Assembly (NCBI RefSeq): GCF_900120385.1 | Contig: NZ_LT635494.1 | Coordinates: 771,076 to 805,104, forward strand | Source of the DNA: Olsenella phocaeensis | GTDB taxonomy: Bacteria; Actinomycetota; Coriobacteriia; Coriobacteriales; Atopobiaceae | Length of the DNA stretch: 34,029 nucleotides | Direction: 5' to 3' | Part shown: piece by piece, positions 3,088 to 34,029 of the stretch | Position numbering within the stretch: position 1 is the stretch's first letter | Layout: each line of letters begins with the position of its first letter | Notes under the pieces: generated by a model | What the model was told of the DNA's origin: nothing | The model's database searches: none | Seen by the model: only the letters and a program-made list of their open reading frames with translations | Position numbers and translations under genes: made by a program

Positions 3088-3738
3088 TCAGAACAGGATG
3101 GCCTCGGCAAGCTCCTCGGTCGTGCCCACGATCGTGGTGGCGCCCTGGGCGCGCAGCCAGCCCACGTCCCTGAAGCCCCAGCTCACGGCGATGCAGTCGA
3201 CGCCCGCGTTCCTTGCCGTCTGGAGGTCCACCTCGGAGTCGCCCACGTACACCACCCGCTCCGGCCGGCATCCCAGCTGGGACGTGACGGCGAGGAGGGA
3301 GTCCGGCGCGGGCTTGCGCCTCACGTCGGGCCGCTCGCCCACGACTGCGTCGAAGAGTCCCCCGAAGTAGGTCGCCACCAGGTCCTGGACGGCGGAGTCG
3401 GGCTTGTTGGACACGACGGCCCTCAGCACCCCCTCGCCCGAGAGCACGCGCAGCAGCTCCTTGACCTGTGGGTAGGGGGCGGTCCGCTCGGCGTTGTGGC
3501 GGGCGTAGTGAGCCCGGAAGGTCGCGAGGGCACGCGCCTCCTGAGGCACGGGCGTGCCCTCGGGGACGCTCAGGTGGATGAGCCGGGCCACGCCGTTTCC
3601 CAGGAAGGACCTCACGTCGTCCTTGGAGCGGCCGGGCAGCCCCTCGGAGGAGAGGGCATGGTTGACCGAGGCGTGCAAGTCGTCAAGGGTGTCAAGTAGA
3701 GTCCCGTCCAGGTCGAAGATGGCCGCCTCGTATGCCAT
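3088..3738 (-). CDS. HAD-superfamily hydrolase, phosphoglycolate phosphatase-like
   Basis: 216-aa cytoplasmic phosphatase. HAD motif I DLDGTLLDT lies near residue 10, with the nucleophile and acid/base aspartates. Motif II is the VVSNK serine, and the motif III lysine is in RKPAP. Motif IV is VVYVGDSEVDLQTA. A C1-type helical cap lies between motifs I and II. Length and motif set match Gph/PGMB-like enzymes, which hydrolyse 2-phosphoglycolate or related small phosphates; the real substrate cannot be read from sequence. The start at 3738 has GGAGGAAGG upstream. It is separated from the ABC operon upstream by the hairpin at 3837-3879, and two GC hairpins (3056-3071 and 3073-3089) overlap its 3' end. 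It is probably a housekeeping single gene. Confidence 0.88.
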   Translation of the reverse strand: MAYEAAIFDLDGTLLDTLDDLHASVNHALSSEGLPGRSKDDVRSFLGNGVARLIHLSVPEGTPVPQEARALATFRAHYARHNAERTAPYPQVKELLRVLSGEGVLRAVVSNKPDSAVQDLVATYFGGLFDAVVGERPDVRRKPAPDSLLAVTSQLGCRPERVVYVGDSEVDLQTARNAGVDCIAVSWGFRDVGWLRAQGATTIVGTTEELAEAILF

Positions 3739-7360: not shown

Positions 7361-7913
7361 CTTTGCTCCATTCCGCACAGGACGCCGCAAGGCGTCACGC
7401 GTTGCATGTGCTCGCACGGATCATGGGTGGTAATTAAATCAGAAATCTACCTGACCCCCCGGCCCGTGGCAACGACCTGGGAAGAGAAATAAGCAAAGCT
7501 TAAGACTGTCTTTCTCCCTTGCGTCGCGAGGGCGCATTGCCATGGCAACAAGGTGGTCAAGTGATGAGAGTTACCATAACCTGATTTTTTGGCTGGCACG
7601 CAGGCAAAAGGTCGCAAGACCCGCACCGCACTCACGGATCGCGGGCACGTTCAGTGCCGGCATCGACGAGAGGATCGACTCGTTCGTCTACTACCTCCGC
7701 TGAGCCGGTGGGCTCGCATCGCTGCTTCGTTCATGACACGCGCGCTCCGCCGCCTGCGTGCGGGCGTGGTGGCGCATCGGGCAACTAGCGGCCACGGTGT
7801 GGCCCGATGCTGCTAGACTGGCGTGTTGCGCGCGTCGGCGCCGTCTACGCCGGGACGCCGTCATCTGTAGGTCCGCCCGCAACGGCACGGGGCGGAAGAG
7901 GCGAGAGGAACCC
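7361..7913. other. 553-bp divergent intergenic region between the exporter operon and aspS
   Basis: No convincing gene is seen. It holds the 5' regions of both flanking units. Visible elements are a hairpin GACGCC-GCAA-GGCGTC at 7381-7396 in the leader of the exporter operon, and an AT-rich patch around 7430-7505 with a perfect inverted repeat TAAGC-N3-GCTTA at 7490-7502, a candidate operator. There is also a T6 run at 7584-7589, a GGTC-GCAA-GACC hairpin near 7610-7621 and a GGCAC-N5-GTGCC hairpin near 7643-7657. An open stretch ending in a TGA near 7703 reads like a protein tail but has no start. Confidence 0.5.
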
Positions 7914-32886: not shown

Positions 32887-32988
32887 TCGTGCGAGCGGCG
32901 GTGCCGTATGGTGACGCAGGCCGCATCGGGACGACGCTCGTGCGAGCGGCGATGCCGTATGGTGACACAGATCACGTCGGGACGACGC
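32887..32988. repeat. 51-bp imperfect tandem repeat
   Basis: Units 32887-32937 and 32938-32988 differ at about seven positions, and a degenerate piece of a third unit may follow. It lies in the 733-bp gap between gpmA and the DUF3793 gene, and no gene is supported there. Only the second copy contains the CRP-like palindrome GTGA-N6-TCAC (32962-32975). 51 bp equals 17 codons, so both strands give repeated peptides, but these frames have no start or ribosome site. Confidence 0.8.
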
Positions 32989-33101: not shown

Positions 33102-33159
33102 TCGACATTAGTTAGCTTTGGTGTACTCTACTTGCCAGCAGGAGTTAACGCGAGTTAAC
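33102..33159 (+). promoter_or_regulatory. predicted promoter of the DUF3793 gene with two metal-regulator-type boxes
   Basis: TCGACA (33102-33107) and TACTCT (33124-33129) are separated by 16 bp. Box GTTAGC-N4-GTGTAC (33111-33126) fills the spacer and touches the -10. Box GTTAAC-N4-GTTAAC (33144-33159), perfectly palindromic in its arms, lies just after the expected start. The arrangement parallels feoA. Confidence 0.6.
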
Positions 33160-33335
33160 AAAAAGCCCCGAGGGCAGGTAAGGACGGCCCGAGGGGAGTG
33201 GGAGGCGCAAAGGCGCGCGACCCACGGCAACTCGTTTATCCCTACCTGGCGCAAGCGGACCCTCTCCCCGTCTTGCGAACAGGTCCTCAAGCGCCGCCCG
33301 CGTCCCCCCTTTCCTGCGCGAGCGGCGCTCTTTTT
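33160..33335 (+). ncRNA. structured leader RNA ending in an intrinsic terminator (riboswitch-like)
   Basis: Helix 1: CCCC-GA-GGGC (33166-33175) with GCCC-GA-GGGG (33187-33196), a symmetric GA/GA internal loop. Helix 2: GTGGG (33198-33202) with CCCAC (33221-33225), enclosing GCGC-AAAG-GCGC. Helix 3: ACCTG and CGCAAG (33244-33255) with CTTGCG and CAGGT (33272-33284). The loop of helix 1 carries CAGGTA (33175-33180), which can instead pair with TACCTG (33243-33248). Then comes the terminator. I could not match it to any riboswitch class I know. The region is non-coding on both strands as far as I can see. Confidence 0.55.
33290..33335 (+). terminator. intrinsic terminator in the DUF3793 leader
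   Basis: AGCGCCGC (33290-33297) pairs with GCGGCGCT (33322-33329), followed by CTTTTTG. It lies upstream of the gene, in the position of an attenuator. A second perfect 10-bp hairpin (33345-33354 with 33368-33377) follows it, 7 bp before the ribosome site AAGGGGTGAT. Confidence 0.8.
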
Positions 33336-33396
33336 GTCACTTTGCCCGGGGACGTCGCCGAGCGCGTCGTCCCCGGGGCTCATAAGGGGTGATCCA

Positions 33397-34029
33397 ATGA
33401 GCGGAAAGAGCGCGATGTCGGTGCGACTGGTCCATGCGCCACTCGAGGGCTGCGACGCGGAGCAGAGCGCCCTCGCGCACGCCTTCGCCACCACCCTCGT
33501 GCGCTGCTGCGCCGCCGTGATCGAGGGGACCAAGCCCGCGGCGCTCTTCTCGTTCAGACCTCCCGCCTGCGACTGTGGGAACGCGGCCTGCCGCAAGGCC
33601 CGCCTGAGGGAGACGATCGCCGCCTACGCGCGCGAGCTTCCCCTCCATGGCCTGGACCTCACCGTCCTCGGCCACGCGGGGGACCGCGTGCAGCTCCTCG
33701 TCTGGCGCTCCTCCCTCGTGGAGGGAATCGTCCGCGACCCGGAGCTCAGCTCCTTCCTCGAGGCGTCGGGCTACCGTTGTGGGAGCGCGTCCGAGCTGGT
33801 GGGCTGCTTCCGCCATCGCCTCGCTGCCTTCCACCTGAGCATCGAGCCGCGCTTCCCCCATGAGGTGGGCGTGCTCCTGGGGTACCCCCTCGAGGACGTC
33901 AGGGGCTACATCTCGGGCGGGCGGGAGACCTGCCGCGGCCCCTGGAAGGCCTATGGCAGCGCCAGCGAGGCGCGTCGCCGCTTCGGGAGGGTGGCCGCGA
34001 GCGAGGAGCGCTGCCGCAGGCGCTTCGCC
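33397..34029 (+). CDS. DUF3793 family protein, 3'-truncated by the window end
   Basis: At least 211 codons, open to the last base. The diagnostic DUF3793 segment is HEVGVLLGYPLEDVRGYISG near residue 160, followed by a Cys-containing stretch (ETCRGPWKAYG) and the SEARRRFGRV tail region. The N-terminal half has several cysteines (CC at about 37-38, CDCGNAAC at about 58-65). The domain's function is unknown; in Firmicutes it is often found beside feoA/feoB and flavodoxin genes, which agrees with the feo-like operator boxes upstream here. ATG 33397 has AAGGGGTGAT at good spacing. The gene sits behind a long structured leader with its own terminator, an unusual feature for this family. Confidence 0.88.
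   Translation, partial: MSGKSAMSVRLVHAPLEGCDAEQSALAHAFATTLVRCCAAVIEGTKPAALFSFRPPACDCGNAACRKARLRETIAAYARELPLHGLDLTVLGHAGDRVQLLVWRSSLVEGIVRDPELSSFLEASGYRCGSASELVGCFRHRLAAFHLSIEPRFPHEVGVLLGYPLEDVRGYISGGRETCRGPWKAYGSASEARRRFGRVAASEERCRRRFA

Follow-up and report, generated by a model that had tools for sequence, protein, structure and literature searches.

The window, i.e. the whole 34,029-nucleotide stretch of Olsenella phocaeensis DNA that was analysed, ends in a DUF3793 gene, which is preceded by a promoter region and a compactly folded segment. The features of this locus, in window coordinates, are:

33110–33126, + strand: operator O1, AGTTAGCTTTGGTGTAC, which overlaps the promoter; the identical 17-mer is found before feoA in genome G046
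33124–33129, + strand: probable −10 hexamer TACTCT, as read from the sequence; its position beside O1 is conserved in relatives
33143–33159, + strand: second operator-like pair, AGTTAAC-GCG-AGTTAAC, just past the expected transcription start; similar pairs are found there in relatives
33160–33231, + strand: variable 5′ leader with helices 1 and 2, structured in the source genome and without conservation in relatives
33232–33335, + strand: conserved RNA core, the proposed C-rich-loop sRNA (covariance model R1, 102.8 bits)
33244–33284, + strand: hairpin 1, from fold and covariation (helix 3 of the preliminary description)
33259–33267, + strand: loop of hairpin 1, ACCCUCUCC, from loop counts in the copies
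33290–33335, + strand: hairpin 2 (33290–33329) and U run, an intrinsic terminator, from fold and covariation
33304–33315, + strand: C-rich loop of the terminator hairpin, 12 nt of C and U, CCCCCC..CC, from loop counts in the copies
33345–33378, + strand: 10-bp hairpin located past the terminator and ahead of the DUF3793 ribosome site, from the fold
33397–34029, + strand: DUF3793 gene (PF12672, 114.7 bits), start codon at 33397, cut by an assembly gap

The DUF3793 gene runs into undetermined bases at the assembly gap (window position 34029; ~1200 in L002), past which a piece of enolase continues in the same frame to give a chimaeric DUF3793 open reading frame; the 5′ part of glnA is present twice around another assembly gap. 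A two-copy 51-bp tandem repeat (88% matches) occupies 32887–32988, between gpmA and the promoter of the RNA. Elsewhere in the window, an aspS RNA (RF02930, 73.9 bits; 7830–7909, + strand), which is a known cis-regulatory motif, lies just before the aspartyl-tRNA synthetase gene.

The segment from 33155 to 33340 folds better than all 200 of its dinucleotide shuffles (z −3.8). The core of 104 nt (33232–33335) reaches a z of −5.3, with none of 200 shuffles equally good, and the 5′ part (33155–33234) a z of −3.8. Several details that the preliminary description had read from the sequence are borne out, namely: the symmetric GA/GA internal loop in helix 1; the terminator ahead of the DUF3793 start codon, which is a 12-bp GC-rich hairpin followed by a U run; and the further 10-bp hairpin at 33345–33378. 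The latter is perhaps a protective 5′ end following processing; at two other loci (L035 and L040), different hairpins seemingly take its place. Hairpin 2 was not reported by a simple terminator scan of the window because its loop is too long for that scan, and a strict sigma-70 scan did not report the TACTCT hexamer.

Of 140 genomes of the Atopobiaceae, the family of the source organism, 32 give matches in a DNA search. The best matches span only positions 107–215 of the 301-nt query, i.e. window positions ~33226–33334, and since conservation begins at ~33226, helices 1 and 2 are not common to the relatives. The structured leader that had been described before DUF3793 therefore stands as a compact fold with a terminator, but not as a unit, only its 3′ part (33232–33335) being conserved.

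Twenty-seven copies, aligned with plain MAFFT (alignment A2), were used to build the covariance model R1. In A2, 94.0% of the cells are paired; the figure is 83.1% for shuffles and no higher than 49% once the pairing partners are slid. Double changes occur at 19 of the 24 pairs as opposed to 7.1 in shuffles. A search with R1 finds the RNA in 88 of the 140 family genomes, representing 21 of 35 genera. In alignment A3, which has 97 rows, double changes are seen at all 24 pairs (16.8 in shuffles) and 93.5% of the cells are paired. It should be noted that the structure guided the fitting of A3 and that two of its 97 rows were judged spurious (the counts elsewhere use 95 copies), which makes A2 the stricter evidence. 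There are 80 G-U cells and 36 A-C cells, as transcription from the + strand would predict. Compensatory changes, which the preliminary description would expect in helices 1–3, are strongly present in helix 3 (hairpin 1) in both alignments, but not in helices 1 and 2, which are without conservation.

The family that bears the RNA is the Atopobiaceae, in the class Coriobacteriia. When R1 was applied after a pattern scan of named contigs, strong matches were obtained in Olsenella, Thermophilibacter mediterraneus, Tractidigestivibacter and metagenome-assembled genomes (MAGs) of Atopobiaceae; across the class Coriobacteriia, only weak matches (E 3e-4 or worse) lie outside the Atopobiaceae, and a plasmid search gave no match. 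One R1 match of 41.9 bits, at 3158–3249 of a 3.3-kb contig (L260) from a MAG labelled Dehalococcoidia, is probably due to contamination by an Atopobiaceae contig. The RNA is present two or three times in some genomes. In three genera (g23, g25 and g27; loci L163, L177, L184, L187 and L192), 2–3 copies are found within a few kilobases, either following feoB or flavodoxin or preceding DUF3793.

No fixed gene lies downstream of the RNA. A same-strand DUF3793 gene follows 26 of the 95 copies, in 10 genera; 24 copies meet the 3′ end of a convergent, opposite-strand gpmA; eno is downstream of 8; 29 have no reference gene downstream within the fetched stretch; and FeoB_associated, flavodoxin or HMA genes follow a few further copies. 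In Thermophilibacter-like genomes, the RNA is usually located between a ZIP gene and the convergent gpmA 3′ end, and in the large genus g33 it sits behind a ZIP transporter gene, often with feoB ahead of ZIP. In other genomes it starts ~5–55 nt past the eno stop codon, while other copies start just past the stop codons of flavodoxin or feoB. The neighbourhood is one of iron genes, with FeoB, FeoA, ZIP, Nramp, FeoB_associated, HMA and flavodoxin as its gene families. Such varied contexts fit an independent or 3′UTR-derived sRNA and not a riboswitch. Indeed, a riboswitch must stay in cis to the gene that it controls, and with DUF3793 after only 26 of the 95 copies, and many copies running into the 3′ end of an opposite-strand gene, the earlier reading as a riboswitch of DUF3793 is not upheld. 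The accompanying remark that the RNA does not fit the c-di-GMP, FMN, cobalamin, Mn (yybP-ykoY) or NiCo consensus does agree with our search of Rfam 15, in which the RNA matched no known riboswitch and no family reached threshold, with gathering or relaxed thresholds being used.

Many of the RNA promoters have in common a palindrome, AGTTARCCNNGGTKTAC, located over or beside the −10 region, and a second AGTTA...TAAC pair is often present past the transcription start. In ten genomes, the AGTTARCCNNGGTKTAC pattern with at most one mismatch has 16 matches, compared with 1 for the reversed pattern. Eleven of the 16 are RNA promoters; two lie before DUF3793-flavodoxin units apart from the RNA (G006 and G120); in G046, matches are found before feoA and before eno (the latter in L223, ~1501–1517); and one (G043) is without a visible iron link. 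Further sites occur in G073, upstream of feoA, and in G057, around Nramp and DUF3793. With up to two mismatches, a site occurs within 250 nt upstream of 53 of the 95 copies, compared with 2 of 475 shuffled and none of 90 downstream stretches, a test that is partly circular given that the consensus was derived from those promoters. Some copies have no recognisable operator of their own and are located behind eno, flavodoxin or feoB. In the source genome, a search for similar operator patterns found none beyond the RNA promoter, and no operator with up to two mismatches was present at feoA of the Thermophilibacter-like genomes examined.

The metal-type operators that the preliminary description saw on the promoter probably belong to a metal regulon, the site over the RNA promoter recurring at feoA, Nramp, DUF3793-flavodoxin and eno genes. 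Within this set, DUF3793 accompanies flavodoxin under the same operator. Enolase also seems to be part of the metal regulon, judging from the operator before eno in G046 and from eno directly preceding the RNA in several genera. Our impression, and it is only that, is that the operator resembles those of the DtxR family; it is presumably not a Fur box. The metal to which the regulon responds may be iron or manganese.

The loops are nearly invariant. Of the 95 copies, 92 have CCUCUCC in the loop of hairpin 1, and 82 have CCCC in that of the terminator. Termination itself gives no reason for conserving the loop of a terminator, so its conservation suggests that the finished RNA has a task of its own. 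The single-stranded parts that are conserved take the form of C-rich loops, which resemble those of trans-acting sRNAs. In addition, an apparently unpaired conserved stretch, GUUUAACCCU in many copies, lies ahead of hairpin 1.

Taken together, the conservation of the loops, the RNA's own terminator and its genomic context, all established computationally, argue for a role in trans. Our best reading, with a probability of roughly 0.62, is that the locus is a small RNA gene and not a riboswitch: a metal-regulon sRNA that uses its C-rich loops to silence mRNAs in trans. Transcription would start at the promoter overlapped by the operator that is common to the feoA, Nramp and DUF3793-flavodoxin genes, and would end at the RNA's own terminator. 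Since this operator is common to iron-uptake genes, scarcity of iron, or of a related metal, is probably the condition under which the RNA is made. The two loops would probably pair with mRNAs at their G-rich Shine-Dalgarno regions and thereby lower translation; mRNAs for dispensable iron proteins are the most plausible targets. The expected outcome is an iron-sparing response that operates beside Feo uptake and flavodoxin. In the source genome and about a quarter of the copies, where the RNA lies before DUF3793 (usually with flavodoxin), read-through or processing may yield both the sRNA and an mRNA. As for individual targets, GGGGAGAGG occurs before ATG 33 times in the source genome as opposed to 9 times in the control, i.e. 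three- to four-fold above it; it matches any ordinary strong ribosome site, and the set of genes so marked is mixed. A search by loop complements before ATG gave no convincing targets, its matches being indistinguishable from ordinary ribosome sites.

The location of about a quarter of the copies before DUF3793 would also suit a cis role there, which counts against the sRNA reading. In such a role, the RNA would be an attenuator or riboswitch of the DUF3793-flavodoxin genes, with a ligand or protein at hairpin 1 deciding whether the terminator forms. Consistent with this are the same-strand DUF3793 genes in 10 genera, the few copies followed by FeoB_associated, flavodoxin or HMA, and the placement of a terminator between promoter and gene. 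A two-state switch had also been deduced from the complementarity of CAGGTA (33175–33180) and TACCTG (33243–33248). Both elements are present as described, but the switch is not conserved, and we reject it: ACCTG is present in the 5′ strand of hairpin 1 in 14 copies, and only two of these, the source included, have CAGGT in the leader and could form the alternative pairing, which is missing in the other 12. Furthermore, many genomes have no same-strand gene for the RNA to control, or have the RNA facing the gpmA 3′ end; G057 has additional operators separating DUF3793 from the RNA; and the conserved unpaired bases form simple C-rich loops with no junction. We therefore consider a cis-acting attenuator unlikely.

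There is a small chance that the RNA is instead a divergent, coriobacterial 6C RNA (RF01066) with roles other than iron sparing, such as in stationary phase, the SOS response or DNA replication. 6C is likewise an RNA of Actinomycetota with two hairpins carrying C-rich loops, a likeness of architecture only. The 6C model scores 27.5 bits at the source locus, while the copy in G102 reaches 32.8 bits and that in G108 29.8 bits, compared with a curated cut-off of 47 bits; this cut-off is strict, and the 6C of C. glutamicum also falls below it. However, 6C is above cut-off in none of the 140 family genomes, and only 2 of the 95 copies are matched at E ≤ 0.1. To our knowledge, neither an iron-gene context nor an operator of this kind is a feature of 6C. 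A distant common ancestry with 6C is conceivable, although the RNA does not reach the score for 6C membership.

It is improbable that the RNA combines both functions, acting as an iron-sparing sRNA in trans and, before DUF3793-flavodoxin, as an attenuator sensitive to the status of iron, Fe-S or flavin, DUF3793 being a hitherto undescribed partner in the response. Likewise improbable is the idea that the RNA is a protein sponge, in which the C-rich loops bind a protein, e.g. a translational regulator, and not mRNAs; we know of no candidate for such a protein. If the RNA paired with many changing targets, its loops might not need to be conserved as strictly as they are, but C-rich regions of this kind do pair with mRNA in IsrR and FsrA (PMC9410917). 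Finally, it is very improbable that the RNA acts solely as a terminator (bidirectional or of an operon) within the iron cluster, albeit a strongly conserved one. Its position, often immediately past eno, flavodoxin, feoB or ZIP genes, would fit this, but termination does not call for hairpin 1 and its almost constant loop, for conservation of a C run in the loop of the terminator, or for a promoter with an operator directly upstream.

The RNA family, which turned up neither in Rfam 15 nor in the papers searched, adds to what is known of gut and oral Coriobacteriia; our literature searches found no sRNA work on this class and nothing relevant on DUF3793. It offers a handle on DUF3793, a family without an assigned function, and the operator motif allows the regulon to be mapped. 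If confirmed, a metal-regulon sRNA at this locus would be a further case of a C-rich-loop sRNA that evolved independently within an iron regulon. Convergence among RyhB, FsrA, IsrR and MrsI has been noted earlier (PMC9410917).

With regard to known sRNAs, the sX13 model (RF02232) scores 24.6 bits at E 0.02 when the window is searched, which is below its 50-bit cut-off; 20 relatives give no match to it at E ≤ 0.05. sX13 is an sRNA of Xanthomonadaceae that has C-rich loops like the RNA described here, but belongs to unrelated bacteria. IsrR, FsrA, MrsI and RyhB are not among the Rfam hits, each possibly being without an Rfam entry, and the likenesses that follow are by description. IsrR of Staphylococcus is a Fur-repressed, iron-sparing sRNA with conserved C-rich single-stranded regions on hairpins, its own terminator and two operator boxes at its promoter (PMC9410917). 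The present RNA shares with it the hairpins with C-rich regions, the terminator, the two operator boxes and the probable iron-regulon setting (PMC9410917), whereas the structure, the bacterial class and the neighbours differ, and an operator presumably of another kind stands in place of the Fur box. FsrA of Bacillus subtilis is a Fur-regulated sRNA that binds Shine-Dalgarno regions via a C-rich motif (PMC9410917); Fur control and the Fbp chaperones are features of FsrA, and may set it apart. MrsI of Mycobacterium tuberculosis is an iron-sparing actinobacterial sRNA for which control by IdeR has been predicted (PMC9410917), and it resembles our RNA in being actinobacterial and in the iron-sparing role that we propose. 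The RNA is best read as an analogue, and presumably not a homologue, of FsrA and IsrR, and we class it as a new RNA family belonging to a known kind, that of C-rich-loop sRNAs in metal regulons.
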